NCBI RefSeq assembly: GCF_900187015.1
Contig: NZ_LT906479.1
Coordinates: 4,898,001 to 4,962,000 of the forward strand
Direction of reading: 5' to 3'
DNA: 64,000 nt
DNA from: Serratia ficaria
GTDB taxonomy: Bacteria > Pseudomonadota > Gammaproteobacteria > Enterobacterales > Enterobacteriaceae
Every line of letters begins with the position of its first letter. The stretch's first letter is position 1. Of this stretch, positions 42,666 to 63,065 are shown one piece after another. The notes beneath the pieces are model-generated. The model saw only the letters and a program-made list of their open reading frames with translations, searched no databases and was not told where the DNA came from. A program made the translations under genes and the position numbers.

Positions 42666-43838
42666 TTACTTCTGAGCTTCCCCGCTCGGCGGCAGCACGT
42701 CGGCCACGCGCAGGGTGTAAATCATGGTGGCCCCCGGCGGGATCGCCGGCGGGCTGCCGCGATCGCCATAGGCCAGCGCCGGCGGCACCACCAGGGTCAT
42801 GGAGCCGTGCTTTTGCAGCTTGCCGATGGCGGCGCGAAACAGCGGCGGGTATTGCGCCAGCGGCTGCGAGATCACCGTGCCGGCCAGCTCCATATCCTTG
42901 ATGACCTGCCCGCCGGGCAGGCTTTCGCGCACCACGATATCGACGCGATCCGCCGCGCCGATCCGGCCGCTGCCGGCATAATCCACCCGGTAGTAAAAGC
43001 CGAGCGCGTCTTTTTGCACCCCCGGCCGTTGGGCAAAGTCGGCAAGGTAGGCCTTGCCGTCCTGCGATCGGCGCCGCTGGGCCTGCTCCATGGCCCGATC
43101 GGCGGCCTGCAGCGCGCTGTCGATCGCGGCGTCGTCCAGCCGTTGGCTGCCCGCCAGGGTGTCGGCGATGCCCGCCAGCAACCGCGGCCGATCCACCGTC
43201 AACCCCAGCTGACGGTTATCGCGCTGCAGCTGCAGGATGTCGCGGCCCAGCGATACGCCGGCGGCATAGGCCTGTTTATCCGCCGCGCTGGTCAGCGCCG
43301 GCGGTTCAGCCGCCTTTTGCCGCGCCGCCAGCTGCTGCTCCAGCCGCCGTACCCGTGCTGCTTCCCGCTGCTGCTGCTGCGCCAGTTGGCCGGCCAGAGC
43401 GGCGCGCTGTTGCTCCGCCTGCGCCAGCGACGCGGCGAGCGCGCCCAGCTCTGGCGCGGGGGCCATCGCCTGCCGCAACCCCTGCAGCGCCCGCGCCAGC
43501 GGCCGAATGTCGATTTCGGTTATTTTCGGCGGCGGCGCGGGCAGCGCCTTGCGCTCCGCCAGCTGTCGCTCCAGCCGGCGGATGGTTTCGGCCTGCTGCC
43601 GCAGAGTTTGATTCAGCGTGGTTAAACGAAGGCTATCGCCGGCGGGAGGGGACGCGTTTCCGGGCCTGGCGGCACCCGGCTCGGCCCGCGGTGCGGGCGC
43701 CGCCGGCTTAACCGCCGGGGCCTGCTGCCGTTCGGCGAATTTCAGCAGCGCGGGAATGCCGTCATCGCTGGCGCCGGCCAGGCCGCACCCCGCCAATAAT
43801 ATCAAGATGGCTGCGGCTCCTTCCGCACACTTGTTCAT
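42666..43838 (-). CDS. FKBP-type peptidyl-prolyl isomerase, probable lipoprotein
   Basis: A 390-residue exported protein. The N-terminus has a hydrophobic stretch with a lipobox LAGC (Cys18), followed by a Pro/Ala-rich linker and two glutamine-rich probable coiled coils (about 70-105 and 135-172). A FkpA-type dimerisation domain follows (SAADKQAYAAGVSLGRDI from about 190). The C-terminal FKBP domain (about 290-385) has LVVPPALAYGDRGSPPAIPPGATMIYTLRV. It should catalyse proline isomerisation or act as a chaperone in the periplasm. It begins two bases after the upstream lipoprotein gene. Pilins contain many prolines, so a role in fimbrial folding is a reasonable inference. Confidence 0.82.
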   Translation of the reverse strand: MNKCAEGAAAILILLAGCGLAGASDDGIPALLKFAERQQAPAVKPAAPAPRAEPGAARPGNASPPAGDSLRLTTLNQTLRQQAETIRRLERQLAERKALPAPPPKITEIDIRPLARALQGLRQAMAPAPELGALAASLAQAEQQRAALAGQLAQQQQREAARVRRLEQQLAARQKAAEPPALTSAADKQAYAAGVSLGRDILQLQRDNRQLGLTVDRPRLLAGIADTLAGSQRLDDAAIDSALQAADRAMEQAQRRRSQDGKAYLADFAQRPGVQKDALGFYYRVDYAGSGRIGAADRVDIVVRESLPGGQVIKDMELAGTVISQPLAQYPPLFRAAIGKLQKHGSMTLVVPPALAYGDRGSPPAIPPGATMIYTLRVADVLPPSGEAQK

Positions 43839-43840
43839 GC

Positions 43841-44263
43841 TTACAGGCTCTCGACCCGATTGGATAAGTCGGACATCAGCTCATGCTCCACATCGGCGCA
43901 GAACTTTTCCGTTTTATATTTATAAAGCGCATCTATAGCTTTACGGGTGCTTTCATCCACGTTGCTGCGAATGCCGGCATATCCGGAGGCATTGGACAGC
44001 AGCCCGTTAAAATAGGCGATGCGCTTTTGATAACTTTGCGGATTAATATTTTTTAACGAATTAACCCTTTGTTGGCACAGCGCGATCCGCTGTTCATCGG
44101 ACTTTTCATTAGGATTACTCTGTGAAACTTTTTTCACAGAAATCGCGCCTGCGCTATTTTTCCCTGCGCAACCTGAAAGCGTAGCGACTGACATTATCAA
44201 TATCGCCAGCGCGCCAGCACAACGAGCGGTGAAAACATTAACTGTAGTAATCATTCCGGTCAT
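43841..44263 (-). CDS. Putative lipoprotein of unknown function
   Basis: About 140 residues. A hydrophobic signal with lipobox LSGC near residue 30 is followed by a polar domain with two further cysteines (IALCQQRV and EKFCADVEH), which may form a disulfide. I do not recognise a family. The start is ambiguous among three in-frame ATGs (44266, 44263, 44254); 44263 has AAGGA at a usable distance. First gene of the operon that continues into the FKBP isomerase and the FaeA-like regulator, divergent from the fimbrial operon. Confidence 0.65.
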   Translation of the reverse strand: MTGMITTVNVFTARCAGALAILIMSVATLSGCAGKNSAGAISVKKVSQSNPNEKSDEQRIALCQQRVNSLKNINPQSYQKRIAYFNGLLSNASGYAGIRSNVDESTRKAIDALYKYKTEKFCADVEHELMSDLSNRVESL

Positions 44264-44323
44264 CATTCCTTAATTTTAACTTAGGTCATCATTATGTAGC
44301 GAACTTTCACATCGCCTGACCGT

Positions 44324-45016: not shown

Positions 45017-45547
45017 ATGAAACTGAATAAATTAATGCTGGCAACCATGATTGCTTTCGCTTCCGCATCTGTTGCCCATGCAGCATCTAATCAAGGCAGC
45101 GGCAAAGTCACCTTTACCGGTTCAATCATCGATGCGCCATGCAGCATCGAACCGAACTCCGTCGACCAGACCGTGCCGATGGGCCAGATCAGCAGCCGCA
45201 TTCTGGACAAGCAAGGCAAATCCAGCATGGAACCCTTCAGCATCAAACTGAAAGACTGCTCACTGTCGACCATGAAAAACGTCAAGGTGACCTTCACCGG
45301 CACGCCGGATCCGGACAACAGCAAACTGCTGGCCCTGAGCGGCACGGCGACCGGCGCCGGCATCATGATCTACGACAAGCTGCATTCCAAGGACGTTGAA
45401 CTGGGCACCGCCACCGATGGCCAGGGCCTGACCGAAAACGACAACTCCCTGGACTTCGCCGCTTACCTGCAGGGCAGCAGCGCATCCGGCGCCGTAGTGC
45501 CGGGCGACTTCACCAGCGTGGCGAACTTCACCCTGGCTTACCTGTAA
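45017..45547 (+). CDS. Major fimbrial subunit (type 1/MR-P-like pilin)
   Basis: A 176-residue pilin with a signal peptide ending AHA (cleavage after about residue 22). The donor strand follows (GSGKVTFTGSIIDAPC), then the disulfide pair Cys42 and Cys81, and the C-terminal strand VANFTLAYL with the penultimate tyrosine typical of chaperone-bound subunits. As the first structural gene, with a strong hairpin after it, it is probably the shaft subunit. The ATG at 45017 follows CAGGAACC. Assembly depends on the downstream usher and chaperone. Confidence 0.93.
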   Translation: MKLNKLMLATMIAFASASVAHAASNQGSGKVTFTGSIIDAPCSIEPNSVDQTVPMGQISSRILDKQGKSSMEPFSIKLKDCSLSTMKNVKVTFTGTPDPDNSKLLALSGTATGAGIMIYDKLHSKDVELGTATDGQGLTENDNSLDFAAYLQGSSASGAVVPGDFTSVANFTLAYL

Positions 45548-45635: not shown

Positions 45636-46187
45636 ATGAAAAGCCGATTTTGGGGCGCGCTGCTTGTGGCGCTCAGCGTTTGCAGCACCGCGGCAACGGC
45701 GAAGGATCAGGGCCACGGCAAGGTCAGCCTGGGCGGCGAAATCGTCGAGACGCCCTGCGGCATTGCCAGCGAGAGCGTGGATCAAACCGTTGATTTTGGG
45801 CTTATTTCAATGAGCGATGCGGCGCAGGGCGCAGCGCCGGTGCTGATCGGCAGCCGCCGCAGCTTTGCGATCCGGCTGGTGAACTGCGAGTTGGCCAGCC
45901 AGGTGAAGCCCGATTTCGTTTATCGCGCGGCCAACGTCACCTTCGACGGCACCGCGGACCGCCGCGACCCCGAACTGCTTGGCGTCCACGGCGAAGCCCA
46001 GGGCGTGGCCATCGAGCTGCTGACCGACGCCGGCACCCCGATCCCGCTCGGCAGCACCACGCCGGATTATCTGATCGTCGCCGGCGACAACCAGCTGCGT
46101 TTCGGCGCGCAATTGCGCATTTATCCGGATAAGGCGCGGGCGGGCGGTTTCAGTTCGCTGGCCAGATTCACCCTGTCTTATCTGTAG
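45636..46187 (+). CDS. Minor fimbrial subunit
   Basis: A 183-residue pilin: signal peptide ending ATA, donor strand region GHGKVSLGGEIVETPC, a second cysteine in LVNCELAS, and the C-terminal strand ARFTLSYL. It lies between the major pilin and the usher, the place of MrpB or PapH-type subunits that terminate or anchor the shaft. The ATG at 45636 follows GGGAG. The exact role is inferred from position. Confidence 0.85.
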   Translation: MKSRFWGALLVALSVCSTAATAKDQGHGKVSLGGEIVETPCGIASESVDQTVDFGLISMSDAAQGAAPVLIGSRRSFAIRLVNCELASQVKPDFVYRAANVTFDGTADRRDPELLGVHGEAQGVAIELLTDAGTPIPLGSTTPDYLIVAGDNQLRFGAQLRIYPDKARAGGFSSLARFTLSYL

Positions 46188-46273: not shown

Positions 46274-48775
46274 ATGAGTGATTATTCTATGACGTCATTA
46301 CTGACACGGAAAAACATACCCATCATCGTCATTCTATCTTTCCTCTGGGTGCGTCCGGCGCAGTCCGCCACGGAATTTAATACCGATGTATTGGATATTG
46401 GCGATCGCAGCAAAGTGGACCTGTCGCGTTTCTCCGACGCCGACTATGTCATGCCCGGCGCCTATCTGCTGGATATCAAAATAAACCAGAAAACGCTGCC
46501 GCAGCGCAGCATCCAGTATTACCCCTCGGCGGACGAAAAAACCCGCAGCCGGGTGTGTTTGCCGCCCGACCTGGTGGAGAAGATGGCGCTGAAAGAAGAG
46601 GCCGCCCAAAAAATCACCTTTTGGCACGACAACGGCTGCGCCGATCTCAGCGGCATCAAGGGCGCGACGATTTCCGACCGCATCGGCGGCGGCGTGCTGG
46701 CGATCACCATTCCGCAGGCCTGGATGAAGTATTCCGATCCGAACTGGACCCCACCCGAGCAGTGGGACGACGGCATTCCCGGCCTGCTGCTGGACTACAG
46801 CCTCAGCGGCCAGGCCGGCAAACAGAGCCACAACAACACGACCGCGGAAAACCTCAGCAGCTACGGCACGCTGGGCGCCAACCTGGGCGCCTGGCGCCTG
46901 CGCGCGGATTATCAGGCCAACTACAATCAGCAGGCCGGCGAACGCGACAGCGGCTTCGACTGGAACCAAATTTACGCCTATCGCGCGCTGCCGATGCAGG
47001 CCGCCAAGCTGACGCTGGGCGAGGTTTATCTCGACTCGGGCGTGTTCGACTCCTACCGCTTCACCGGCCTCAACCTGGCCAGCGACGAACGCATGCTGCC
47101 GCCCAACCTGCAGGGCTACGCGCCGGAAGTGCGCGGCATCGCCAAGAGCAACGCCAAGATCACCGTGTCGCAGGAAGGCCGCACGCTGTATGAAACCACG
47201 GTGCCCGCCGGGCCCTTCGCCATTCAGGATCTCAACAGTTCGGTGCGCGGCCGGCTGGACGTCAAGGTGGAAGAACAGGACGGCAGCGTTTCTACCTTCC
47301 AGGTGGATACCGCCACCATTCCTTACCTGACCCGTCCCGGCTACGTGCGCTATAACATCGCCCTCGGCAAGCCTTCGGCCTACGATCATCGCATCCAGGG
47401 GCCGCTGTTTTCCGCCAGCGATTTCTCCTGGGGGCTGAGCAACGCCTGGTCGCTGTACGGCGGCGCGCTGCTCGGCGGCGATTACAACGCCTGGGCGCTC
47501 GGCCTGGGCCGCGATCTGAACCTGTTCGGCGCCATGTCGGTGGACGTGACCCAGTCGATCGCCCGCCTGCCCGGCGAACCGACCGCCAGCGGCATGTCGT
47601 TCAAGGTCAACTACGCCAAGCGTTTCGATGAGCTGAACAGCCAGATCACCTTCGCCGGCTACCGCTTCTCGCAGCGCAAGTTCATGAACATGTCGCAGTA
47701 CCTGCAGGAGCGCTACGACAACTACGACGACAGCTACAACGGCCGTCAAAAAGAGCTGTATACCGTCACCGCCAGCAAGACCTTTATGGCGGAAGACAGC
47801 GCCAGGGCGATCACCGCCTACCTGACCTATTCGCACCAGACCTACTGGGACGCCAGGACACAGGATCGCTATGGGCTGTCGGCCAGCAAGCTGTTCAGCA
47901 TCGGCGACGTCAGCAACATCACCGCCTCGCTGGCCGCCTACCGCACCAGCTACCAGGGGCGCACCGACGACAGCATCATGCTGAACTTCACCGTGCCGAT
48001 CGGCGACCGCCGACGCATCGGCTATTCGCTGCAGACCACCAACAGCGACGTCACCCAGCTGGCGTCCTACAACGACTATACCGACCCGAACAACAGCTGG
48101 CAGGTCAGCGGCGGCTTCAATCAGTCCGGCAAGTCACTGGCGCGCGGCTACTACACCCACAACGCCGCGTTCGGCTCGCTCAACGCCAGCGCCTCTTACC
48201 AGCAGGACAGCTACTCCTCGGTCGGCGGCACCTTCCGCGGCGGCCTGACCGCCACCCGGCACGGCGTGGCGGCGCACCAAAACTCCAGCAACGGCGGCAG
48301 CCGCATGATGCTGGATACCGACGGCGTCGCCGGCGTGCCGATCAACAACGGCCGCGCCTACAGCAACCGTTTCGGGCTGGCGGTGATCGCCGATATCACC
48401 AGCTACTACAACACCGACACCCGCATCGACGTCAACACCCTGGCGGACGACGTGGAAGCGACCCGCGCCGTGGTGCAGGGCACGCTGACCGAAGGCGCCA
48501 TCGGCTATCGCCACTTCGAGGTGGTGAAAGGCAGCAAGCTGTTGGCCACCATCAAACTGGCCGACGGCAGCGAGCCGCCGTTCGGCGCCACGGTGCTGAG
48601 TGAAAAAGGCCGCGAAGTGGCGGTGGTGAACGACGGCGGCTCGGTCTATCTGACCGGCGTGCAGCCGGAAGAACGGCTGGACGTCGCCTGGGAAGGCCAG
48701 CGCCAGTGCCGCATAGTGATCCCGGGCGCCGCCAAGCCGCTGGATCAGCTGCTGCTGCCGTGCGCCAAACTGTAA
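46274..48775 (+). CDS. Fimbrial outer-membrane usher
   Basis: An 833-residue usher of the PapC/FimD family. Order: signal peptide (to about residue 32), N-terminal periplasmic domain (TEFNTDVLDIGDRSKVDLSRF, with a Cys pair at RVCLPPDLV and DNGCADLSG), a 24-strand barrel with plug, and C-terminal domains ending RQCRIVIPGAAKPLDQLLLPC. It forms the secretion pore that receives chaperone-subunit complexes and polymerises the pilus. ATG at 46274; a second in-frame ATG five codons on is possible. The chaperone gene follows 24 bases later. Confidence 0.95.
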   Translation: MSDYSMTSLLTRKNIPIIVILSFLWVRPAQSATEFNTDVLDIGDRSKVDLSRFSDADYVMPGAYLLDIKINQKTLPQRSIQYYPSADEKTRSRVCLPPDLVEKMALKEEAAQKITFWHDNGCADLSGIKGATISDRIGGGVLAITIPQAWMKYSDPNWTPPEQWDDGIPGLLLDYSLSGQAGKQSHNNTTAENLSSYGTLGANLGAWRLRADYQANYNQQAGERDSGFDWNQIYAYRALPMQAAKLTLGEVYLDSGVFDSYRFTGLNLASDERMLPPNLQGYAPEVRGIAKSNAKITVSQEGRTLYETTVPAGPFAIQDLNSSVRGRLDVKVEEQDGSVSTFQVDTATIPYLTRPGYVRYNIALGKPSAYDHRIQGPLFSASDFSWGLSNAWSLYGGALLGGDYNAWALGLGRDLNLFGAMSVDVTQSIARLPGEPTASGMSFKVNYAKRFDELNSQITFAGYRFSQRKFMNMSQYLQERYDNYDDSYNGRQKELYTVTASKTFMAEDSARAITAYLTYSHQTYWDARTQDRYGLSASKLFSIGDVSNITASLAAYRTSYQGRTDDSIMLNFTVPIGDRRRIGYSLQTTNSDVTQLASYNDYTDPNNSWQVSGGFNQSGKSLARGYYTHNAAFGSLNASASYQQDSYSSVGGTFRGGLTATRHGVAAHQNSSNGGSRMMLDTDGVAGVPINNGRAYSNRFGLAVIADITSYYNTDTRIDVNTLADDVEATRAVVQGTLTEGAIGYRHFEVVKGSKLLATIKLADGSEPPFGATVLSEKGREVAVVNDGGSVYLTGVQPEERLDVAWEGQRQCRIVIPGAAKPLDQLLLPCAKL

Positions 48776-48799: not shown

Positions 48800-49546
48800 A
48801 TGAATAAACACCCGATAGCAATACTGACCGCGGCCGGCCTGGCATTGACGGCCGCCATGCCGGCGGCCAATGCGGCGATCTCGCTGGATCGCACGCGCGC
48901 CGTCTACCTGAGCGACGCCAAATCCATCAGCCTGAATATCGTTAACGAAAACAAAGAGCTGCCATTCCTGGCCCAGTCCTGGCTGGAGGATGAGCAGCAC
49001 CGGAAAATCACCTCGCCGCTGGTGGTGCTGCCGCCGCTGCAGCGGGTGGAGGCCGGCGAGCGCAGCGTGGTGCGCATCACCAAAACGCCGGAGGCCGAGC
49101 GTCTGCCGCAGGATCGCGAATCGGTGTTCTATTTCAACCTGCGCGAAATCCCGCCGAAAAGCGGCAAAACCAACGTCATGCAGCTGGCGCTGCAGACGCA
49201 AATCAAGCTGTTTTACCGGCCGAAGGCCATCGTCGCCCCCAAGGGCGAAGTCTGGCAGGAGAAGCTGGTGTTTCGTAAAAGCGGCGGCGGTTTCACCATC
49301 GACAACCCGACGCCGTTCTACATCACCCTGACCGGCATCACCCGCCAAACGCAGAAGCAGGGCGGCGGCGCGATCGGCGACTTTCAGCCGCTGATGCTGA
49401 AGCCGAAATCCAGCGAAAGCATCAAGCTGCGCGATAACGGCCTGAGCGGCTTTGTCGTCACCTATATCAATGACTACGGCGGCCACCCTGAGTTGCGCTT
49501 CGCCTGCAACGGCAGCGTTTGCACCGCCGTGCCCGATAAAAAATAA
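48800..49546 (+). CDS. Periplasmic fimbrial chaperone (PapD family)
   Basis: A 248-residue two-domain immunoglobulin-like chaperone. The signal peptide ends AANA; the mature protein begins AISLDRTRAVY, containing the conserved anchor arginine. The G1-strand region TNVMQLALQTQIKLFYRP carries the anchor lysine and alternating hydrophobic residues. The C-terminal pair ACNGSVC matches the PapD-type disulfide. It donates a strand to pilins and delivers them to the usher. ATG at 48800, 24 bases after the usher. Confidence 0.95.
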   Translation: MNKHPIAILTAAGLALTAAMPAANAAISLDRTRAVYLSDAKSISLNIVNENKELPFLAQSWLEDEQHRKITSPLVVLPPLQRVEAGERSVVRITKTPEAERLPQDRESVFYFNLREIPPKSGKTNVMQLALQTQIKLFYRPKAIVAPKGEVWQEKLVFRKSGGGFTIDNPTPFYITLTGITRQTQKQGGGAIGDFQPLMLKPKSSESIKLRDNGLSGFVVTYINDYGGHPELRFACNGSVCTAVPDKK

Positions 49547-49557
49547 GGAGATACGGC

Positions 49558-50169
49558 ATGGCTGAATTCACCGGCCGCCTACGGCCCCTGCTGCTTTGCG
49601 CCCTGCTGTGCGGCGGATCCGCCACGGCGGCGACGCCGCTGGGCGTGGTTCAGGGCACCACCGGCACCGTCAGTTTTTACGGCGGGCTGCTCAGCGCCCC
49701 CTGCAGCCTGGCGCCGGATAGCCAGGATCAGTCGATCGATCTCGGCGAGGTCAACGCGCGCGACTTCCAGAACGCCGGCGATCGGAGCGCGCCGGTGCGC
49801 TTCCGTCTGTCCTTCCGCAATTGCCTGCTGGGCGCGCGCGCGCTGGCGGATAACCCGGCCGGGCCGCGCAACGGCGACGCCAATCGGCTCTATTTGCAGG
49901 GCGAACAGGCCGCCACGCTGGTGTTCCTCGGCGAAAGCGACATCGCCAATCCGCAGCTGCTGAAGCTGAACGGCGGCGCGCAAGGCATCGGCCTGCGGCT
50001 GAGGGATCAGCAGGGCCGCGCGTTGGCGCTCAATCAGCAAAGCCGTCCCTATATTCTGCAACCCGGCAGCAACACCCTGTGGTTCAGCGCCAGCGTGGAG
50101 TCCACCCAGCGGGCGGTGATGGCGGCGGGGTTTGCCGCCGTGGCGCACATTCAGGTGATCTACCTGTGA
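49558..50169 (+). CDS. Minor fimbrial subunit
   Basis: A 203-residue pilin with signal peptide ending ATA and donor strand TTGTVSFYGGLLSAPC. The second cysteine is in SFRNCLLG, and the C-terminal strand is AHIQVIYL. It is larger than the shaft subunit because of an insertion of about 25 residues after the second cysteine. It lies 11 bases after the chaperone and 13 before the tip protein, a position typical of adaptor subunits such as PapK/PapF. Confidence 0.82.
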   Translation: MAEFTGRLRPLLLCALLCGGSATAATPLGVVQGTTGTVSFYGGLLSAPCSLAPDSQDQSIDLGEVNARDFQNAGDRSAPVRFRLSFRNCLLGARALADNPAGPRNGDANRLYLQGEQAATLVFLGESDIANPQLLKLNGGAQGIGLRLRDQQGRALALNQQSRPYILQPGSNTLWFSASVESTQRAVMAAGFAAVAHIQVIYL

Positions 50170-50182
50170 GGCTCGTGATCCG

Positions 50183-51187
50183 ATGAAAAACCAATACGTT
50201 AAATTCTGTCTGCCGCTGGCGTTAACGCTGGCGGCCCCTGCCGCCTGGGCCAACGGCTACGTGACGCCGGACGGCGGCCCGAAACAGTTTTATATCGATC
50301 TGAATGAAACCAACATCACCAACCAGGTGGGGTTTACCAAACTGTTTACCTATTCATTAGGCGGCACCTATACCGGCAAGGCCTATTGCGATACCCCTAT
50401 CCCCAAAAGCCCGCACTATTACAAATCGGACTCGGCGCTGCCCGCTTCCGACTACGGCAATGGCTATCTGCAGCTGAACGACTTTCTCGACCTGAAGGCC
50501 GAGGTGTGGATCGCCGGCAATAAAAAGGCCTATGTCACCGTGCCGTTTTATAACGAGTCCAACCTGCTGAGCCAGCATGCCTGCACCCCGCCCTATGCGC
50601 AGATCAACAACTACGAAAGCGGTTCAAAAGGCCGCATCACCTTCCGGGTGCGCAAGAAGATCATCAATGGCGTGCAGATCAACGACCGGCAGATCATCGA
50701 GATGTACGGCCGGTTAGGCTCTCTCGACGGCGGCTTCGGCCCCAATCCGATGGCGCAGGTGTTCATCCAGTCCGCCATCCTCTACGTGCCGGACAAATGC
50801 GTGGTCAACGAAGGCCAGCTGATCAACGTGGAATTCGGCGAAATCAGCGGCAGCAACCTGAACGGCGCAAGCTACCCGCAAAACATTCCGGTGCGCTTCC
50901 AATGCGAGGGCGGCAGCTTCGAAGACGGCACCCTGAACATCAAGCTGGCGGTTTCCGGCACCGCGGCCTCTTTTAGCACTAACGCGTTCAAAACCGACAA
51001 GAACGATCTGGGCATCCAGATAAAGCATAACGGCCAGTTGGTGGTCCCGAACGAATTTTATCCGGTGCCGAATATCGGCAACGGCGGCTCCTGGAATCTG
51101 GTGGCGGCGCCGCTGGCCAACGGCGGCAAGGAGATCGATGAAGGGGAATTCAACGCGTCGGCCACCATAGTGGCGGCATTCCAGTAA
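50183..51187 (+). CDS. Two-domain fimbrial tip protein, candidate adhesin
   Basis: A 334-residue exported protein (signal ends AWA near residue 23). The N-terminal part (about 24-195) is aromatic-rich with two cysteines (KAYCDTPIP and SQHACTPP) and resembles no domain I can name; it is the candidate receptor-binding domain. The C-terminal part (about 205-334) is pilin-like with PDKCVVNEGQLINVEFGEI and VRFQCEGG. This two-domain form is that of tip adhesins. It is the only such gene in the operon. The ligand cannot be told from sequence. Confidence 0.75.
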   Translation: MKNQYVKFCLPLALTLAAPAAWANGYVTPDGGPKQFYIDLNETNITNQVGFTKLFTYSLGGTYTGKAYCDTPIPKSPHYYKSDSALPASDYGNGYLQLNDFLDLKAEVWIAGNKKAYVTVPFYNESNLLSQHACTPPYAQINNYESGSKGRITFRVRKKIINGVQINDRQIIEMYGRLGSLDGGFGPNPMAQVFIQSAILYVPDKCVVNEGQLINVEFGEISGSNLNGASYPQNIPVRFQCEGGSFEDGTLNIKLAVSGTAASFSTNAFKTDKNDLGIQIKHNGQLVVPNEFYPVPNIGNGGSWNLVAAPLANGGKEIDEGEFNASATIVAAFQ

Positions 51188-51205: not shown

Positions 51206-51745
51206 ATGCGTCTACGCGCTTTCGCGCTGCTGAGCTGCGCGCCCTGGTGGTTTGCGGCCCTGCCGGCCACGGCGGATACCGAGCTGATCGGCTCGCCGTT
51301 GCAATTTCACGGCACCGTGGTGAGCCGGCCGTGCAACATCGAGCCGCAGTCCGCCGACCAGCTGGTGGAGATCGGCACGGTGATCGTCAAAACCCTGTAC
51401 CGCTACGGCCACACCACGCCGGTGCCGTTCAACATCAAGCTGACCGACTGCAAAACGGCGGTGTTCAAGTCGGTCAACGTCACCTTCAGCGGCATTGAGG
51501 ACCCGGAGCTGCCGGGCAAGCTGGCGATCAACAACGGCACCAACGGCGCCGCCATCGCGCTGTTCGACCACCAGGGAGCGGATATCGATCTGAACCGGGC
51601 CACCAGCGCGGTGGCGCTGCAGAACGGGCCCAACGTGCTGAATTTCACCGCCTATGTGCAGGGCCACCCGAGCGCCATCCAGAATAAAACCATAACCGAA
51701 GGCGAATTCCGCTCGGTGGCCAACTTCGTGCTGGCTTACCAATAA
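51206..51745 (+). CDS. Minor fimbrial subunit
   Basis: A 179-residue pilin. The signal peptide ends ATA, and the donor strand region LQFHGTVVSRPC, Cys in KLTDCKTAV and C-terminal VANFVLAYQ follow. It is closer to the major pilin in layout than the other minor subunits. The final residue is Gln rather than Leu. It lies 18 bases after the tip protein and 25 before the transferase gene, so it may be an adaptor, or a shaft variant. Confidence 0.82.
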   Translation: MRLRAFALLSCAPWWFAALPATADTELIGSPLQFHGTVVSRPCNIEPQSADQLVEIGTVIVKTLYRYGHTTPVPFNIKLTDCKTAVFKSVNVTFSGIEDPELPGKLAINNGTNGAAIALFDHQGADIDLNRATSAVALQNGPNVLNFTAYVQGHPSAIQNKTITEGEFRSVANFVLAYQ

Positions 51746-51770: not shown

Positions 51771-53399
51771 ATGTCCCAACAAAAAACGGCCTGGCTATTC
51801 GGGCTGGCGGCCGGTTATTGCCTGATCGCCATGCACCTGTCTTGGCCCAATCGCGGCGGCAGCGGTTTTTATCTGCCGTGGAATATGGTCGGCGCCCTAT
51901 TTATGGCGCTGTTTATTCTCGGGGCGATGTTGTTCAGCCGGCCGCCGCTGGCCGTCTCCGGCTTTTTTAACCGACTGGCGCTGGGCGGCCTGATTTTATT
52001 ATTGCCCTCCTGCTGGGCCGCCGAGCCCTGGCTGAGCGAGGCCTTGCCGCGCCTGCTGGGGTTGGGGCTCGGCGTCATGGCCTACCTCGCGCTGCTGCAA
52101 ATTCCGCTCGACCGACGCCGACGCCGCCGCCTGCTGACGTTGCTGCTGGCGGCGGCGGTCATCGAAGCGCTGCTGGGCATGGCGCAGTACAGCCTGCTGC
52201 AGCCGGGCAACGGCTTCGGTTATGACACCCTGAAGAATCGCCCCTACGGCGTTTTCCAGCAGTGGAATCTGATGGCCAGTTTTATCGCCACCGGCCTGGC
52301 GCTGGCGCTGTACCTGCTGAGCCGCCGCGGGCGGTTGTCGCCGCTGGTCAGCCTGCTGGGCGGGGCCATGCTGACGCTGGCACCGCTGTTACTGATCCTG
52401 ATCGCCTCGCGCGCCGGCCTGCTGGCCGCCGTGCTGCTGGCCCCGTGGCAATGGCTGATGCTGCATCGCCTCAACCGCCGCCGCGCCGGCCACGCCCTGT
52501 GGCTGCTGGCCGCCGGGACGCTGGCCGGGTTCGCCCTGGTGGCGTTGAATGGCGCCACCCGCGCCATCGACGTGGCCGAGCCGATCTTCTACCGGTTGGC
52601 CTATTGGCAGGAAGCCGTGCGCATGATCGCCGAGCGTCCGTGGTTCGGCTGGGGCTATGGCCACTTCCGGCATGATTTCCTGCATCATTTTTACCAGAAC
52701 CACCGCAGCGGCATGGAAAGCGTCAGCGTCACCCATCCGCATAATGAAGTGTTGCTGTGGGGCGTGGAGGGCGGATTGCTGAGCCTGTGCGGCGTCGGCG
52801 TCATCGGCTGGGGCTTGTGGCGCCTGCTGCGTCGGCGCGCCCGGCCGCTGCGCCCTGCGCCTTGGCAGGCGGCCCTGCCTATCCTGCTGCATATGATGGT
52901 GGAATACCCGCTGTATCTTTCCGCCGCGCACGCCGTGCTGCTGCTGGCGATACTGCGCGCCGGCGACCTTCGCCGCCGCTGCCGCCTGCCGCCGATGGCG
53001 CAACGGGCGTCGCGCGGGGCGGCGGCCGTATCGGCGGCGCTGATGCTGATTTATATGCTCAATGGGCTGCACAGCGCGCTGATCATCACCCGCGTGGAAA
53101 AAACGGGCCTGCGGCAGTTCGCTCCCATGAATCAGGTTATTTCGCCCACGCCCTGGCAAACCCGTTACGACTTCGACAGCCAGCTGCGGCTGCTGCTGCA
53201 GTACCCGCGCACCCGGGACGCGGCCGCGCTGCGGAGCTACCGGCGCTGGGCCGAGAACGAAATCCGCGTGCGCCCGGAAGCCAACATCTACTTCAACCTG
53301 ATCCGGGTCAGCCGGCTGCTGCAACAGCCCCAACGGGCTGCGCAGCTGCAATCGCAGGCGCGTCGGCTGTTCCCGCACGACGGACGCTTTGAGGAGTAA
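51771..53399 (+). CDS. PglL/Wzy_C-family O-oligosaccharyltransferase-like membrane protein
   Basis: A 542-residue polytopic inner-membrane protein with about ten helices to residue 430 and a soluble C-terminal tail (about 450-542) ending in a TPR-like region. Ligase-family marks are visible: SRAG at 213-216, ERPWFGWGYGHF at 288-299 and HPHNEVLLWGVEGGL at 322-336. The last is typical of PglL-type O-OTases, which move lipid-linked glycans to Ser/Thr of periplasmic proteins. The related functions are O-antigen ligase (WaaL) and polymerase (Wzy). It lies 25 bases after a pilin gene and three before the regulator, inside the fimbrial operon, so pilus glycosylation is inferred. The substrate is untested. 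Confidence 0.75.
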   Translation: MSQQKTAWLFGLAAGYCLIAMHLSWPNRGGSGFYLPWNMVGALFMALFILGAMLFSRPPLAVSGFFNRLALGGLILLLPSCWAAEPWLSEALPRLLGLGLGVMAYLALLQIPLDRRRRRRLLTLLLAAAVIEALLGMAQYSLLQPGNGFGYDTLKNRPYGVFQQWNLMASFIATGLALALYLLSRRGRLSPLVSLLGGAMLTLAPLLLILIASRAGLLAAVLLAPWQWLMLHRLNRRRAGHALWLLAAGTLAGFALVALNGATRAIDVAEPIFYRLAYWQEAVRMIAERPWFGWGYGHFRHDFLHHFYQNHRSGMESVSVTHPHNEVLLWGVEGGLLSLCGVGVIGWGLWRLLRRRARPLRPAPWQAALPILLHMMVEYPLYLSAAHAVLLLAILRAGDLRRRCRLPPMAQRASRGAAAVSAALMLIYMLNGLHSALIITRVEKTGLRQFAPMNQVISPTPWQTRYDFDSQLRLLLQYPRTRDAAALRSYRRWAENEIRVRPEANIYFNLIRVSRLLQQPQRAAQLQSQARRLFPHDGRFEE

Positions 53400-53402
53400 C
53401 CC

Positions 53403-54026
53403 ATGCCCGATATCCGATTCACCCTGTTCGACGGCGATAACTTTTATCAGCAGGGGCTGCGTTCGCTGCTGCAGGATTATCTGCACGCCCTGAATGAATG
53501 CCACCGCTTGTACCCTCAGCTGGCCCCCCTCGAGTCGCAGCGTCTGGAGGGCGTTGAGGTGGTGTTCCGCACCCTGGAGGATCGCTGGGGCTGCGCCTGT
53601 TGCTACCAGAGCCCGTATCAGACGCCACGGCACCGGCAGATGACCGTGCTGATCCTGGACGATCATGCGCCGCGGCATTGGCAGGCCCATCCGGCGCTGT
53701 TCAGCATTCACCGGCGCGATTCCGTTTACGCCGTTCGCAACAAGCTGCAGATGGCGCTGGAACGTTTTTGCCAGCAGCCCTGGGTGGCGCTGCACGCCGC
53801 CGGCCTGTGGAAATGCCAGCAGTGCCGCATCGCCGCGCTGAGCAGCTGCGAGAAAAAGGTGCTGCGGCTGATGAGCACCGGCATGTCCGCCTGCAGCATC
53901 GCCGGCATGCTGCAGCGCAGCCAGAAAACCATCAGCGCCCACAAACGCTCGGCGATGCGCAAGCTCAACGTCCGCAAGAGCAGCGAATTGAACAAAATGC
54001 TGTTGAATCAGATGGGGCTGAATTAA
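53403..54026 (+). CDS. LuxR-type, cysteine-rich regulator of the fimbrial operon
   Basis: A 207-residue protein. The N-terminal region (RFTLFDGDNFYQQGLRSLLQ) recalls a receiver domain but lacks a clear phosphoacceptor aspartate. The LuxR/NarL helix-turn-helix is at about 146-202 (LSSCEKKVLRLMSTGMSACS, TISAHKRSAMRKLNV). Nine cysteines are present, including GCACC (63-67) and KCQQC (137-141), unusual for this family. Metal or redox sensing is possible but unproven. It starts three bases after the transferase gene, so it is part of the fimbrial operon and probably feeds back on it or on motility. Confidence 0.75.
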   Translation: MPDIRFTLFDGDNFYQQGLRSLLQDYLHALNECHRLYPQLAPLESQRLEGVEVVFRTLEDRWGCACCYQSPYQTPRHRQMTVLILDDHAPRHWQAHPALFSIHRRDSVYAVRNKLQMALERFCQQPWVALHAAGLWKCQQCRIAALSSCEKKVLRLMSTGMSACSIAGMLQRSQKTISAHKRSAMRKLNVRKSSELNKMLLNQMGLN

Positions 54027-56812: not shown

Positions 56813-57997
56813 GTGGTGAAACCCTTTTTACGCAGTGGCAGTTTGGATGATGTGCTTGCCTTGGGCGAAAATGGGCAACCGGTTTATGCCTGCGCGCCGC
56901 AGCTGCGGGAAACCTTGCGCATCCGCCAACGGCAGCAGGCCGCCGATTGCCTGGCCATCCCCCAGCCGAACGAGTCCGGCACCCGCATTGACTGGTATGC
57001 CCCCTTCCCGGGGAAGGTCACCTCCTGGCTGGCGGCGAGCGACGATCAACGCGCGCAGGCGTTGCGCCGGCTGGAACGCAGCCTGGAGACATTGCGCACC
57101 CTGGCGGCGCAGGCGCAGGCGACGGATCACCCCAGCCAGCGTCTGTTCGGCGCCTTGCTGGCCAAGGCGATGCAGATCCCGGACCAAAACCATGTCTACC
57201 TGGTCGACGATAAACCGGTGCTGACCTTTTGGGGCTTTATCCGGCCGCAGGCCCAGCGCCAGGACGATCCGCTGGCCTGCCTGCGCCCTGCCGAACCGCC
57301 AACGGAAAAAACGGCGCCGATCGCCGCCGCGCCGCGGCCATTAGCGGCACCCGCCGCCCAGCCCGCACCCGCGACTGAAATCATCAGGCCGGCGCAACCT
57401 CGCCGGCGCCGTTTTGTCTGGCCTGCGCTGATGCTGGCCGCCTTGCTGGCCGTGGCCGGCTGGCTGAGCCGGCCGCAGGTTCACCCTGCCGTGGCGCAAC
57501 CCGCGGCTCCGCAGCCCCGCCCGACCGCGCCGGCGTTCAGGCCACGGCTGCCGCTAGCCCACGCGACGCTGATGCCGCCGCCCCCCGCGCCGGCCGCCCA
57601 GACGCCGGCGGATAAACATTCGCTGGTGCTGCCCGCCGACGCGGTCAAGGCCGGTTCGACCCGTTTTCTTAACGGCAAATGGCGCGCCACCGTGGCGCTG
57701 AAGGATCCCCTGACCGGCAAACGCCCCAGCCTGCAATACCGGCTGAACGGCGGCAAAGGCACCGCCAGCATTACCCACGGCGACGCCGTCACCTGCCGGG
57801 CGCCGATCGAGGCCGGGCTGATGCCGTCGGGCAACCTGGTGATCAACAGCCGCGCCAAAGCGCGCTGCAGCGACGGCAGCCGCTACCCGCTGCCGGAAAT
57901 CGTCTGCAGGCAAAACGATACCGGGCCGGCGGCGTGCAGCGGCCGCTACGGTGCGGATACGGTTTACCCCATGACGTTCAAGCGCGAGAGTAAATGA
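56813..57997 (+). CDS. srfA: SrfA-family protein
   Basis: A 394-residue protein matching the SrfA family (first gene of srfABC in Salmonella), with the N-terminal block FLRSGSLDDVLALGENGQPVY. A Pro/Ala linker leads to one membrane helix (about 201-218, after a RRRR stop signal). A second Pro/Ala-rich linker and a C-terminal domain (about 280-394) with four cysteines follow, probably outside the cytoplasm. The start is a GTG (56813 or 56816). Its stop overlaps the srfB start (ATGA). SrfABC is called a virulence system, but the mechanism is not clear from sequence. Confidence 0.85.
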   Translation: MVKPFLRSGSLDDVLALGENGQPVYACAPQLRETLRIRQRQQAADCLAIPQPNESGTRIDWYAPFPGKVTSWLAASDDQRAQALRRLERSLETLRTLAAQAQATDHPSQRLFGALLAKAMQIPDQNHVYLVDDKPVLTFWGFIRPQAQRQDDPLACLRPAEPPTEKTAPIAAAPRPLAAPAAQPAPATEIIRPAQPRRRRFVWPALMLAALLAVAGWLSRPQVHPAVAQPAAPQPRPTAPAFRPRLPLAHATLMPPPPAPAAQTPADKHSLVLPADAVKAGSTRFLNGKWRATVALKDPLTGKRPSLQYRLNGGKGTASITHGDAVTCRAPIEAGLMPSGNLVINSRAKARCSDGSRYPLPEIVCRQNDTGPAACSGRYGADTVYPMTFKRESK

Positions 57998-60936
57998 TGC
58001 CGGCACCCCTTACGGATTACCCGCAAGCCGTTACGCTGATCCAGGACAGCGGTATTCAGTTTCTGGACTTTGCCCTGATACCGGCCGATGGCGACGTGGC
58101 GGGCAAGTTTGTCCGCCAGACGGCGAGCGGCCCGCTGTTGCGCCTGCAGTGGGATGCCGACGGCGAGAAATACCTGTTGCCCGCCCAGCCGGGGCAGGCC
58201 GCCGAGGTGGTGCGCCCGGAGTTCGGCTATTCGCTGCAGCAATCGCTGAGCCTGCTGGATAAAATCTGGCTGCCGCTGCCGTTCTTCCGTTACACCCCGT
58301 CCGGGGCGTTTTTAGCCGGGCCGGATAACTGGGCGCGGATGCAAATCGCGCAGCTGGACGCGCCCGATCGGGACGGCAATCTGCTGCGGGTGGTGCTGGC
58401 CTTCGATACCCGCCTCGCCGCGCCGGGCCAGGAGAGACTGGCCCCGAGCGAGCGCGATCTCGCGACCGGCCTGCACTTCGCTCTGGCCCACCGCAACCAT
58501 GAGCTGGGCGAGTTTCTCGATCACACCTGGGTGGACGGCTGGCTGCGCGAAGCCTTTACCCAGCGCGCCGCCATGCGGGAACAGCGCGACGAAGCCGCGC
58601 TTAACGCCGGGCTGAAAACCTTCGAATATCAAGCGCACTACCTCAATCTGTTGCACATGCTCGGCCACCAGCTGGCGGTGCCGCAGATAAAAATCGTCGG
58701 CGCGACGCTGCAGCAGCCGGCGGTCGACGTGGATCTGGTCCTGGACGTCGGCAACTCCCACACCTGCGGCGTGCTGGTCGAGGATCATCCGGAAGAAAAC
58801 AACGGCCTGAAGCAGACCTATGAACTGCAACTGCGCTCGCTGTCCGCACCGCACTGCGTTTACAACGAGCTGTTCGAAAGCCGGGTCGAATTCGCCCAGG
58901 CTTCGTTCGGCAAGGCCCACCTCTCGTTCCAAAGCGGGCGCGACGACGCCTTCGTCTGGCCTGCTATCGTCCGGGTGGGCCGCGAGGCGGTGCAGCTGGC
59001 GCAGCGGCGGCGGGGCACTGAAGGCAGCACCGGCATTTCCAGCCCGCGCCGCTACCTGTGGGACGAAGAGCGCTACGCCCCCGGCTGGCGGTTCAACGGC
59101 CCGCAAGAGCCGATGGCCGCCGCGGCGCCGCTGACCGGCTTGATCAACGACGAAGGCGTGCCGCTGTCCGCGCTGCCTGCGGCGGAACGTCTGCCGGTAT
59201 TCGCCGCCCACTACAGCCGCAGCGCGGTCATGAGCCTGATGCTGACCGAACTGCTGGCGCAGGCGCTGATGCAGATCAACAGCGTCGCCCAGCGGAGCAA
59301 AATGCCCAACGCCGCCGCTCCGCGCCGCCTGCGCGCCATTATCCTGACCCTGCCTTCGGCGATGCCGAAGCCCGAGCGGGAGATTTTCCGCCGCCGCATG
59401 CGGGAAGCCATCGGCCTGGTGTGGAAAGCCATGGGTTGGCACCCGCTGGACGCGCCGTTCGACGGCGAGCAAACCCGCGTTGCGGTGCCGCAGGTGCATA
59501 TGGAATGGGACGAGGCCACCTGCGGGCAGATGGTTTATCTGTATAACGAAACGCAGATGAACTACGCCGGCCGCACCGACGCCTTTTTCGCCGCCATGGC
59601 CAGGCCGGACCGCCCGCCGGCGCCGGGAGAACAGGCGGGCAAAACGTTGCGCATCGCCTCCATCGACATCGGCGGCGGCACCACCGATCTGGCCATCACC
59701 CAGTACGCGCTGGACGACGGCGTGGGCAACAACATCAAGATCAATCCGCGGTTGCTGTTCCGCGAAGGATTTAAAGTCGCCGGTGACGATATTCTGCTGG
59801 ATACCATCCGGCTGTTTATCCTGCCCGCGGTACAGCAGGCGCTCGAAGACGCCGGGGTCGCCGCGCCGGCGGCCGTCATGGACAAGCTGTTCGGCAACGA
59901 AGGCCGCATGGACGGGTTTTCCACCCTGCGCCAGCAGGCCGCGCTGCAGATATTCATGCCCGCCGGGCGCGCCCTGCTCTGCGCGTATGAAGATTACGAT
60001 CCGCTGGACGCCCGCGCCGAGATCGCCGCCAGCCTCGGCGAGCTGTTGCCGCAAGCGCCGACGCCGCAGGTACTGGCGTTTATCGACGGCGAGGTGCAAC
60101 GCGAAATCGGCGCCGCCTTCGCCATCTTGCAGACCCCGCTGGTGATCCGCCTGGGCGCGCTGCACGCCGCTTTTCTGTCCGACCGGGTCGGCATCGGCCG
60201 CTGCCTGCGGCTGCTCTGCGAGGTGGTGGCGCTGTACGCCTGCGATGTGCTGCTGCTGACCGGCCGCCCGGCGCGCTTCCCCGGCGTGCAGGCCCTGCTG
60301 CGCCGCCTGCAGCCGCTGCCCGCCAGCCGCATTTTGCCGCTGGAGGGCTACCATACCCGCAGCTGGTATCCGTTTAACCAACGCGGGCGCATCGCCAACC
60401 CCAAATCCACCGCCGCCGTGGGCGCCATGCTGTGCCTGCTGGCGAGCGGCCTGCGCCTGGGGAGCTTTTACTTCAACGTCGGCGATTTCCAGCCCTATTC
60501 CACCCTGCGCCATTTGGGCATGCTGGACGGCAATAACATGCTGGCGGACGATAACGTCTACTACCGCGACATCGATCTGGACCGCGCCGACTTTACGTTG
60601 GATCCCCATGGCCGCTTCCAGCTGCGCGGCCCGCTGCGCCTGGGTTTCCGCCAGCTGGACAACCCGCGCTGGCCGGCATCGCCGCTGTATACGCTCACCA
60701 TCGCCGATGCCCAACTGGCGCGCAGGCTGGCCGGCGATGCGGTGATCAGCCTGAGGCTGGCCGTCACCGGCAGCGCCGAGCAGGGCGCCGAAGGCGTCGA
60801 GATCGCCGAAGCCCTGCTGGACGACGGCACGCCGGTGCCCGCGCACCAGCTGCAATTGAAACTCAATACCCTGGCTGCCAGCGCCTCCGGCGCCGCCCAT
60901 TACTGGATAGACAGCGGGAGCATTTATACCAGATGA
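57994..60936 (+). CDS. srfB: SrfB-family protein with actin/Hsp70-like ATPase motifs
   Basis: A 980-residue cytoplasmic protein of the SrfB family. Two phosphate-binding motifs of the actin/Hsp70/ParM fold are visible: DVGNSHTCGVLVED at 251-264 and DIGGGTTDLAI at 558-568. An ATPase or scaffold role is therefore likely. Most of the remaining sequence has no recognised domain. It overlaps srfA and srfC by four bases at each end, so the three proteins are probably made in fixed proportion and act together. A long minus-strand ORF here is a shadow. Confidence 0.88.
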   Translation: MMPAPLTDYPQAVTLIQDSGIQFLDFALIPADGDVAGKFVRQTASGPLLRLQWDADGEKYLLPAQPGQAAEVVRPEFGYSLQQSLSLLDKIWLPLPFFRYTPSGAFLAGPDNWARMQIAQLDAPDRDGNLLRVVLAFDTRLAAPGQERLAPSERDLATGLHFALAHRNHELGEFLDHTWVDGWLREAFTQRAAMREQRDEAALNAGLKTFEYQAHYLNLLHMLGHQLAVPQIKIVGATLQQPAVDVDLVLDVGNSHTCGVLVEDHPEENNGLKQTYELQLRSLSAPHCVYNELFESRVEFAQASFGKAHLSFQSGRDDAFVWPAIVRVGREAVQLAQRRRGTEGSTGISSPRRYLWDEERYAPGWRFNGPQEPMAAAAPLTGLINDEGVPLSALPAAERLPVFAAHYSRSAVMSLMLTELLAQALMQINSVAQRSKMPNAAAPRRLRAIILTLPSAMPKPEREIFRRRMREAIGLVWKAMGWHPLDAPFDGEQTRVAVPQVHMEWDEATCGQMVYLYNETQMNYAGRTDAFFAAMARPDRPPAPGEQAGKTLRIASIDIGGGTTDLAITQYALDDGVGNNIKINPRLLFREGFKVAGDDILLDTIRLFILPAVQQALEDAGVAAPAAVMDKLFGNEGRMDGFSTLRQQAALQIFMPAGRALLCAYEDYDPLDARAEIAASLGELLPQAPTPQVLAFIDGEVQREIGAAFAILQTPLVIRLGALHAAFLSDRVGIGRCLRLLCEVVALYACDVLLLTGRPARFPGVQALLRRLQPLPASRILPLEGYHTRSWYPFNQRGRIANPKSTAAVGAMLCLLASGLRLGSFYFNVGDFQPYSTLRHLGMLDGNNMLADDNVYYRDIDLDRADFTLDPHGRFQLRGPLRLGFRQLDNPRWPASPLYTLTIADAQLARRLAGDAVISLRLAVTGSAEQGAEGVEIAEALLDDGTPVPAHQLQLKLNTLAASASGAAHYWIDSGSIYTR

Positions 60937-63065
60937 AACCTATCCCCTCCCCCTCGCGGCTCAGCGGCGGCATCCTTCAGGCGATTGACTGGCTGGCGGC
61001 GGCGCGGCAAGGCTCCGTCCGCCTGAACCGGGAAGCCGACAGCCTGACGCTGCGCCTGCGGCGCTGCTACAACCGGGCGACGCTGTTGGACCACGCCGCG
61101 CAGCGGCCCGTCGCCATCGGCCTCTATGGCCATAACCTCGCCGCCAAAAGGCACCTGCTGGCGGCGCTGGCGCCCGGCGCCGAGCCGCTGGGCGGGGACG
61201 CCGCGCTGACGGTGCGCTACGCCGGCTCCGCGGCTCGGGCCTCATCCGCTTACCCGATCGCCATCACCCTGCTTGATGAAACGCAGCTGCTTGGCATGGC
61301 GATTGGCGCCGCGTTAATGGACGGGTTTCGCCCCGAGGGCGAAGCGCGCGCCATCGCCGCTCGCCTGCAGGCGCTGGCGCGCCACCGCCAGGCGATGGCC
61401 GTTGACGGCATGGACAGCAACGCCGTTGTAGCACTGTGGGACCGCATCCGCCGCCACGGCGGCAAATGGCAACCGGCGCTGGACCGCCATTTCTGGCCGC
61501 AGGCCGTCGCGCTGGCGCCCCACCTGAGCATCGACGATCGGGCCCGGCTGTTCGCGCCGCTGTGGGGCGAGGATCCGCGGCTGACGGCGCACTATCGTCA
61601 GCTGGCCTATGCGCTGCACGCGCTGGGCTGCAGCGCGCGCCTGCAGGCCCCGGAAGCGGCCTGCGCCCTCGGCGCGTCAGCCAGGGCAACGCTGTCGGTG
61701 CTGACGGAGAGCGGTGCCGCGCTAAACGTCTCGCAGGCCGATCTGGCGTGGCTGGCCGCCGAGGTGACGGTGCCCCTGCCCGCCGGCTTGCCGGCCGGGG
61801 TTGAGCTGCTCGATATCCCGGCCAGCGCCCACTGCCCGGGGGCCGAGCCGACGCAGCGCCTGCAGCAGGCGAAACGCGCCGATCTGCTGGCGCGCTGCGC
61901 CGAAGGGCTGCATGCCAGCCTGCTGCTGATTGCCGACGCGGTCGACCGGCCGCAGGACGCCGGCCGAACGGGCGAGGCGCTCGCCTATTGGGTCGAGCAA
62001 ACGCAGGGGGAAAGCGCCGGGGTGCGCAGCCGCCGCAAGCCCGGCTTGATCTGGGCCATCACGCCGTTCGACGCGCGCCGGGAAGGGAAGCAACGGCCTG
62101 ACGACGCCGTTCAGCGTCACGTCGGCGAGCCCGGAGACAGCTGGGCGACGCTGCTGGCGACGGACGAGCGAGACTGCCGCCGCATGGCGGCTTATCTGGC
62201 CGAGCAGGCGCGCCCGGCGTTAAAACAGGCGCGCATCCTTGAACGGCGGCAAGAGCTGCGGCGCGAACTGAAAGACAGCCTGCTCGGCAACTGGCTGACC
62301 AGCCCGGACCCGCAGCGCGCCCGGCGCCTGCTGCGCGCACTGCAGGCGCAGGCCGGCGCGCATGGCGAACTGCTGGAATGGCTGCTGCCGCAGCGCGATG
62401 CGCTGCGCCGGTTGTACCCACAGCCGCAGCCCCTCATGCCCGCACCGGTGGCCGCCGCCCCGCCGTTCGGCGTCGATGTCGACCTGTTCGGCGAGGAGCC
62501 CGCCGCCGCACCGGCGGCGCATGGCGGCTCGCCGTTTGCCCAGCGGGTGTTCGCGGAGTGGGTCAATCACCTGCGCAATCTGCCGGATAACGCCCAACTG
62601 TCGGCGCTGCTGGGCGTCGACAAACCCCAGTTGGAACTGTTGGCCGATGCCTTGATTACCGCCGCCGGCCGGCTGGAGATTGACGCCGCATTGGAACGCG
62701 CATTGGCCGCCGCCGCGGGCGAGGATCGGCAGATTGGCCAGGCGCTGGCGATACTGGGCGATTTCGTCGCCTGGCTGGGCTTCCAGCAACGCGATGCGGC
62801 GTCGCGCCCCGCCAGCCGCATCAATCACGGCCGGCCGATATTTAGCCCGCCGCCGCAGCCGGCGATCGACTGGGGCAATCAGCAGCGGTTGACCAAGCTG
62901 GCGCCGACGGCGGCCACGCATGCCGCCTTTTATATCTACGACTGGCTGGTCGGCCTGCAAACCCTGCTGGCGGAGAATGCGGCCGCCGCCCCGGCGCTCG
63001 AGGCGGCGGCGCGTGCGGCGCTGGAGGAGAGGGTGGCAAGGATGTGCGACGAGGACGGCGCCTGA
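60933..63065 (+). CDS. srfC: SrfC-family protein with degenerate P-loop
   Basis: A 710-residue SrfC-family protein. A P-loop-like segment follows a beta strand at residues 59-74 (PVAIGLYGHNLAAKRHLL). At the place of GxxxxGK(S/T), residues 66-73 read GHNLAAKR, so the third-last glycine and the Ser/Thr are lost and nucleotide binding is doubtful. The middle contains a possible Walker B-like TPFDARREG. The C-terminal part is helical with a Pro/Ala linker near 490-525. The family is described as a virulence effector. Last gene of srfABC. Confidence 0.85.
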   Translation: MKPIPSPSRLSGGILQAIDWLAAARQGSVRLNREADSLTLRLRRCYNRATLLDHAAQRPVAIGLYGHNLAAKRHLLAALAPGAEPLGGDAALTVRYAGSAARASSAYPIAITLLDETQLLGMAIGAALMDGFRPEGEARAIAARLQALARHRQAMAVDGMDSNAVVALWDRIRRHGGKWQPALDRHFWPQAVALAPHLSIDDRARLFAPLWGEDPRLTAHYRQLAYALHALGCSARLQAPEAACALGASARATLSVLTESGAALNVSQADLAWLAAEVTVPLPAGLPAGVELLDIPASAHCPGAEPTQRLQQAKRADLLARCAEGLHASLLLIADAVDRPQDAGRTGEALAYWVEQTQGESAGVRSRRKPGLIWAITPFDARREGKQRPDDAVQRHVGEPGDSWATLLATDERDCRRMAAYLAEQARPALKQARILERRQELRRELKDSLLGNWLTSPDPQRARRLLRALQAQAGAHGELLEWLLPQRDALRRLYPQPQPLMPAPVAAAPPFGVDVDLFGEEPAAAPAAHGGSPFAQRVFAEWVNHLRNLPDNAQLSALLGVDKPQLELLADALITAAGRLEIDAALERALAAAAGEDRQIGQALAILGDFVAWLGFQQRDAASRPASRINHGRPIFSPPPQPAIDWGNQQRLTKLAPTAATHAAFYIYDWLVGLQTLLAENAAAAPALEAAARAALEERVARMCDEDGA

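Follow-up and report, generated by a model that had tools for sequence, protein, structure and literature searches.

A PglL-like O-oligosaccharyltransferase gene in a chaperone–usher fimbrial operon of Serratia ficaria, and its recurrence beside fimbrial operons of the Enterobacteriaceae

Introduction

Chaperone–usher (CU) pili are much-studied enterobacterial adhesins, and to our knowledge no dedicated glycosylation system is known for them. The closest described enzymes are the general O-oligosaccharyltransferases of the PglL type, comprising Neisseria PglL and the homologs of Schulz et al. (2013; PMC3643930), whose genes lie, in the sections of that paper drawn on here, beside type IV pilin, uvrA-type or other genes and not in CU operons; three Yersinia homologs are given there with a 'pilin' context, defined as type IV. 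A second group, TfpO/PilO, TfpM and PglS, is encoded beside pilin genes and presumably serves one main acceptor each, these being type IV pilins or ComP (PMC12645811); in the available portion of this 2025 review the terms 'fimbria', 'usher', 'Serratia' and 'Enterobacter' are absent. A sugar on a CU pilin has been reported for CfaB of ETEC, O-glycosylated at T74 and T78 according to the BEMAP method, but no transferase in a CU operon is named in the available sections of that paper (PMC5000012).

Here we analysed a stretch of 64,000 nt from Serratia ficaria, referred to as the window (G000:C1:4898001–4962000; the source genome is a single contig of 5.21 Mb), in which an earlier note had seen a PglL-like gene inside a CU fimbrial operon. 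That note knew of no described CU-encoded PglL, and our search of titles and the opening parts of abstracts, outside subscription journals and preprints, likewise showed no paper on such a link among those listed.

Results and discussion

The transferase gene is packed into a nine-gene CU operon

The gene of interest (51771–53399, + strand) encodes a protein of 542 aa and is the eighth of nine same-strand genes separated by gaps of at most 88 bases. The operon begins with two pilin genes, the first probably specifying the major subunit (45017–45547; Fimbrial, PF00419, 70.8 bits) and the second scoring 50 bits with the same family (45636–46187), followed by a PapC-type, Stf-like outer-membrane usher (46274–48775; Usher, PF00577, 518.9 bits; NCBIfam NF011812 at 862.5 bits, under its cut-off of 972) and a PapD-type, StfD/SteC-like periplasmic chaperone (48800–49546; PapD_N and PapD_C, with its best NCBIfam matches under cut-off). 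Next are a pilin-like subunit (49558–50169; PF00419, 63.1 bits), an LpfD-like, adhesin-like subunit of 334 aa (50183–51187; Fimbrial domain at residues 196–334; NCBIfam LpfD at 99.8 bits, under its cut-off of 412) and a minor pilin (51206–51745; PF00419, 60.6 bits) that adjoins the transferase gene, whilst the last gene specifies a LuxR-type, weakly FimW-like regulator (53403–54026; GerE 44.1 bits; NCBIfam FimW 49.1 bits, under its cut-off of 219). As the best NCBIfam models, of Salmonella StfC/StfD type for usher and chaperone and LpfD for the 334 aa protein, all stay below their cut-offs, the operon is not Stf or Lpf itself.

With usher, PapD-type chaperone, pilin subunits and a GerE regulator in one unit, the Pfam results bear out the fimbrial location described in the earlier note, and the packing it gave was also correct: 25 bases separate the transferase gene from the end of the minor pilin gene (51745) and 3 bases from the start of the LuxR-type gene (53403). 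The PglL-like gene is probably co-transcribed with the pilus genes. All five subunits in the operon carry the CU-type Fimbrial domain, which sets the locus apart from TfpO/PilO, TfpM and PglS with their linked type IV pilin genes. A promoter scan returned no more sites than in shuffled sequence; terminator-like sites numbered 19, compared with 10.6 after shuffling, and were left out of the interpretation. Further downstream, past the operon region, SrfB-type and SrfC-like ('Virul_Fac') genes lie at 57994–63065 of the window.

The protein has the domains and residues of PglL enzymes

The motifs SRAG (residues 213–216), PWFGWGYGHF (290–299) and HPHNEVLLWGVEGGL (322–336), on which the first reading of this protein had relied, are all present in the ORF, and the profile search proposed at that time placed Wzy_C_2 (74.5 bits), Wzy_C (54.4 bits) and PglL_A (32.0 bits) all over their Pfam cut-offs. 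In eight further clade members scanned, Wzy_C and Wzy_C_2 passed in every case, with PglL_A below cut-off or absent in four. In order to compare the protein with PglL and WaaL enzymes we considered the residues that Schulz et al. (2013; PMC3643930), in the sections drawn on, describe as conserved among PglL enzymes but not in WaaL, namely Q178, N180, H400, E404 and P406 of N. meningitidis, together with G316 and G318. Placed by motif, in an alignment without any Neisseria sequence, the first five correspond to Q164, N166, H374, E378 and P380 of the window protein, and these were invariant in all 62 family rows of the tree described below. Arg275 and His324 were equally invariant; the SRAG arginine was kept in 55 of the 62 rows and replaced in seven.

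The source genome offers an internal comparison, since it holds three Wzy_C genes. One of the other two adjoins rfaF-, rfaC- and kdtA-type genes (an LPS-core-type locus) and the other lies with wbaP-, rmlB-, rmlA- and flippase-type genes (an O-antigen-type locus); neither product passes a naming profile, and we labelled them WaaL and Wzy-like by gene context. Both are missing Wzy_C_2 and PglL_A. Across the five discriminating positions the WaaL protein shares only the asparagine and the Wzy-like protein only the last proline, whilst the two published glycines occur in both and do not discriminate here.

An alternative is that the window protein is a polysaccharide polymerase or LPS ligase (Wzy/WaaL) misread as PglL. 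The Wzy_C domain is common to both classes, relatives in databases are often named O-antigen ligase, RfaL or polymerase, and an AF2 model built from 31 sequences (mean pLDDT 90.1) had WaaL (7tpg) as its sole PDB match at E ≤ 0.001, with fold and arginine and histidine positions in common; searching the PDB by sequence gave no match for the protein. Against this stand the PglL-specific residues, the two domains absent from the genome's own WaaL and Wzy-like proteins, and the placement of the genes for those proteins in LPS-core-type and O-antigen-type loci, in contrast to the window gene, for which no glycan-synthesis domain was detected in the operon or ten neighbours scanned. A Wzy/WaaL identity is therefore very improbable. 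Profile, discriminating residues and genome context together give good support to a PglL-like O-oligosaccharyltransferase, as the earlier note had proposed, with the corresponding activity predicted.

Orthologs and distant relatives within Serratia

We next surveyed gene neighbourhoods across the genus, searching 30 genomes for matches at E ≤ 1e-10. A PglL match was found in 26 of these, at 41 loci (counting once an ortholog in G019 that is broken near its 3′ end into two pieces). Close orthologs were present in 12 genomes including the source genome, the other 11 showing 74–77 % identity, and a CU operon surrounded all 12 (window, L034–L040, L042 and L070–L072) in the same gene order, except that no match to the window's adhesin was found in L036 and L042. 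Among the 29 more distant loci (31–38 % identity), an usher was in view in 13, and a further locus, L075, showed chaperone and pilins with the usher just beyond the stretch. In total, 26 of the 41 loci were linked to CU genes and 15 had no CU gene in view.

Of the latter, L076 is a weak match, and L053, near a contig end, has a tip-like gene and the flanks of the CU-linked loci L043, L044 and L051. The remaining 13 occupy one common site, sharing flanking gene families on one side in 12 cases and on the other in 11; the latter flank is also found at L052, where PglL and a CU operon are neighbours. The simplest reading of these stand-alone loci is that the CU operon was lost and the enzyme kept.

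The source genome contains seven ushers, one of which has PglL beside it. Compared with four orthologs, dN/dS was 0.17–0.24 for PglL and 0.06–0.10 for the usher; the PglL gene is under purifying selection.

The link recurs across the Enterobacteriaceae and is absent from control loci outside the family

A search of 392 sampled family genomes (E ≤ 1e-20) returned PglL matches in 53, from 23 of 154 genera; as at most three candidates were scored per genome, paralogs may be missed. Six of the matching genomes are Serratia, leaving 47 genomes with 53 loci, every one of which we fetched. An usher lay within the view of ∼9 kb at 46 of the 53, on the same strand in 39. At one more, L078 of Pantoea, pilins were in view, and its named copy L041 adds a CU chaperone. 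Six had no CU gene in view: L086 and L129 are on short or cut contigs, L120 is a split frame, L088 and L125 have CU-linked neighbours in the tree, and L114 has lipoprotein, FKBP and LuxR partners of the kind described below. At L117, L119 and L124 the usher is clearly different and two chaperones are present. Genomes of the genus carry 8.57 ushers on average; at that density the chance of a random gene lying that near an usher is ∼0.034, giving a binomial chance for 46 of 53 of 2.5e-60, a significance that is inflated by the relatedness of the loci. A CU-linked member was found in 21 of 25 PglL clusters formed at 50 % identity, and the link was retained across PglLs down to about 20 % identity. 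Named family relatives belong to Serratia, Chania, Pantoea, Erwinia, Scandinavium, Citrobacter, Klebsiella aerogenes, Providencia and Pragia, with gene context viewed for the fetched loci. The family-wide link is strongly supported by its recurrence, and the window gene is one instance of a pattern wider than the earlier note saw.

For comparison we searched the whole order, family included (E ≤ 1e-15), and obtained matches in 146 of 394 genomes. Among the matches listed, 20 out-of-family loci from 18 genomes were picked across families, and none had a CU gene in view. Twelve of these lie beside a gene specifying 906–956 aa, which we take to be a putative uvrA because Schulz et al. (2013; PMC3643930, sections drawn on) describe that context; four have neighbours with type IV pilin-like N-terminal motifs and four have neither. 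In a tree of 81 rows, 56 CU-linked and six unlinked family rows were separated from all 19 out-of-family rows with SH-aLRT 100, the tree being a quick, midpoint-rooted one with long branches and no bootstrap; before it was built, 32 of the 94 family rows had been removed as near-copies, fragments or weak rows (15 of the 32 were unlinked), as had the control L136. Relative to published PglLs, which they resemble in domains and PglL-specific residues, the members described here thus form a separate clade in the tree sampled. The unlinked rows L045, L059, L066, L088 (whose nearest row is the CU-linked L092) and L125 were nested beside CU-linked rows. A class-wide search gave matches in three of 369 genomes, the source genome included, and a search of phages gave none. 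Across 49 operons the correlation of PglL and usher distances was 0.71, versus 0.96 for usher and chaperone; on these distances PglL travels with the operon but appears to diverge, or to be exchanged, more freely than the chaperone–usher pair.

The link also bears on the idea that the protein is a general PglL acting on many periplasmic proteins, merely co-located and co-regulated with the fimbrial operon. Described PglL enzymes are indeed mostly broad in target and seldom tied to one substrate (PMC12645811, in the portion available), the 13 stand-alone Serratia copies show no CU gene in view, and CU operons with the same usher type but no PglL in view exist, as do Pro/Ala-rich stretches in an FKBP partner (see below). 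A general enzyme, however, could be encoded anywhere, whereas outside the genus 46 of 53 loci adjoin an usher and none of the 20 out-of-family PglLs does so. We therefore regard a general enzyme as unlikely, though the strongest of the alternatives considered.

PglL-free operons and further genes of the module

As controls, 20 CU regions were fetched, none of which had PglL in view. Ten of these contain an usher of the window's type (864–921 bits to the window's usher), and L159 reproduces the gene order of L061 minus PglL; given these ten same-type operons, the enzyme is an option and not a requirement of the pilus type.

Divergent from the window's operon are a gene for a small protein with a lipobox-like signal, recognized by eye and matching no Pfam family over cut-off (43841–44266, − strand), and one for an FKBP-type peptidyl-prolyl isomerase whose N-terminal part is rich in Pro and Ala (42666–43838, − strand; FKBP_N and FKBP_C over cut-off), both probable partners in the module. 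Homologs of this pair follow PglL in L061, L064, L069, L100, L101, L106 and L114. In L046 and L065 they are found past the LuxR gene, and they also occur in the PglL-free operons L159, L163, L165 and L169. The isomerase with its Pro/Ala-rich stretch and the small lipoprotein-like gene thus recur beside CU operons both with and without PglL, and the pair appears to go with the fimbrial module, not with the transferase.

A UG4-class reverse transcriptase gene follows the last pilin gene in L043 (11749–12771, − strand; 476.8 bits), and similar genes, judged by similarity to that of L043, lie in the CU+PglL operons L044, L046, L051, L075, L097 and L041/L078. An association of UG4 with fimbrial genes has already been published (PMC8934634, consulted sections); its meeting with PglL in the same operon may be new to the literature. 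In L044 the 3′ end of the reverse transcriptase gene is duplicated (12364–12548 and 13501–13685; 185 nt, 88 %), and tip-adhesin-like genes there are flanked by reverse transcriptase tails, as if adhesin cassettes had been inserted or copied at this point. A diversity-generating retroelement was considered and rejected because this longest repeat is the duplicated 3′ end with mixed mismatches, the enzyme is of class UG4, and the UG4–fimbrial neighbourhood is the published one.

Mobile and decayed copies

In S. marcescens and S. entomophila, a CU operon with a PglL-like gene is also plasmid-borne, the plasmids being typed as conjugative (L173 and L174; AP028578.1 and NZ_MT039147.1). A DNA query of E. 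coli matched 625 of 5426 genomes, among the matches listed mostly via a flanking gene; the transferase was found in two of ten matches listed and was shortened in both. Both strains come from chicken or chicken meat, and each has, next to an IS3 remnant, a fimbrial gene together with a truncated transferase (L175, 9035–10758; L176, 6035–7758), the decayed traces of a CU+PglL operon.

Such plasmid-borne cassettes could suggest that PglL is a passenger on mobile fimbrial cassettes with no role in the pilus, as could broken copies, which include stops in G154 and G401, the split frames L082 and L120 and the two E. coli remnants. A passenger would nevertheless be hard to reconcile with purifying selection, invariant active-site residues and a link that persists at such low PglL identity, and we give this explanation little credence.

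Candidate donor and acceptor

Since no glycan-synthesis domain was found in the operon or the ten neighbours scanned, a glycan would have to come from elsewhere in the genome, which contains a wbaP-type gene and three Glycos_transf_4 genes, presumably including wecA and mraY.

In order to look for an acceptor we compared first pilins from 38 PglL-linked operons (window included) with those from ten unlinked operons, and found no difference in Ser, Thr, Ala or Pro. The sole difference in composition was in Lys (P 0.046, uncorrected, nine tests). This control is weak, as some genomes with unlinked operons, for example the source genome with its operon L153, hold PglL elsewhere. Ser/Thr/Ala/Pro-rich stretches were equally rare in subunit ORFs of linked (23 of 295) and unlinked (4 of 60) operons. 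In the FKBP partner they occurred at six of ten linked loci plus the window, versus none of four unlinked, numbers too few for a claim, and at L038, one of the six, the stretch is confined to the FKBP domain. With the usher controlled for, partial Mantel tests (five, uncorrected) yielded 0.23 for pilD (P 0.0005, n = 47), a value confounded by its adjacency to PglL, 0.15 for pilB (P 0.0075, n = 40) and 0.12 for pilC (P 0.02, n = 42), with no signal for pilA or the chaperone. The minor pilin adjoining PglL, with its weak co-variation, may be put forward as the best of several weak acceptor candidates.

A proposed role in pilus glycosylation

Taken together, these observations make it reasonably probable, in our judgement, that the genes belong to a clade of PglL O-oligosaccharyltransferases coupled to CU pili, which put lipid-linked glycan on pilus subunits in the periplasm. 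The enzyme would be an inner-membrane protein whose active site faces the periplasm. It would take an undecaprenyl-pyrophosphate-linked glycan of O-antigen or enterobacterial common antigen type, with synthesis encoded elsewhere in the genome, and move it to Ser or Thr of at least one pilus subunit before or during assembly. Whilst the PglL-like class and, through its recurrence across the family, the CU-pilus link of the earlier note both stand, pilus glycosylation and an O-antigen donor are, as in that note, what we infer from them. Counted against this model are the missing acceptor signature, the same-type CU operons without PglL, the unlinked loci (15 of the 41 Serratia loci and 6 of the 53 from other genera), the weak or absent PglL_A in four of eight members, the PglL–usher correlation of 0.71 and the SRAG arginine replaced in seven of 62 rows.

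A more far-reaching proposal, which we offer tentatively as conceivable but short of probable, is that this fimbria-coupled clade in Enterobacteriaceae decorates CU pili with the O-antigen or common-antigen glycan that the cell itself makes, such that pilus antigenicity and binding would track O-serotype, and that in some Serratia one stand-alone copy would act in trans for several fimbriae.

The findings suggest that some enterobacterial CU pili carry sugars in a way that has not been described. The gene is a single one that can be deleted and the effect examined, and glycoconjugate work could also take an interest in transferases that have evolved alongside immunoglobulin-like pilin subunits. 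If the model is true, a transferase encoded in the CU operon would add a layer to the antigenicity, stability and binding of these pili.
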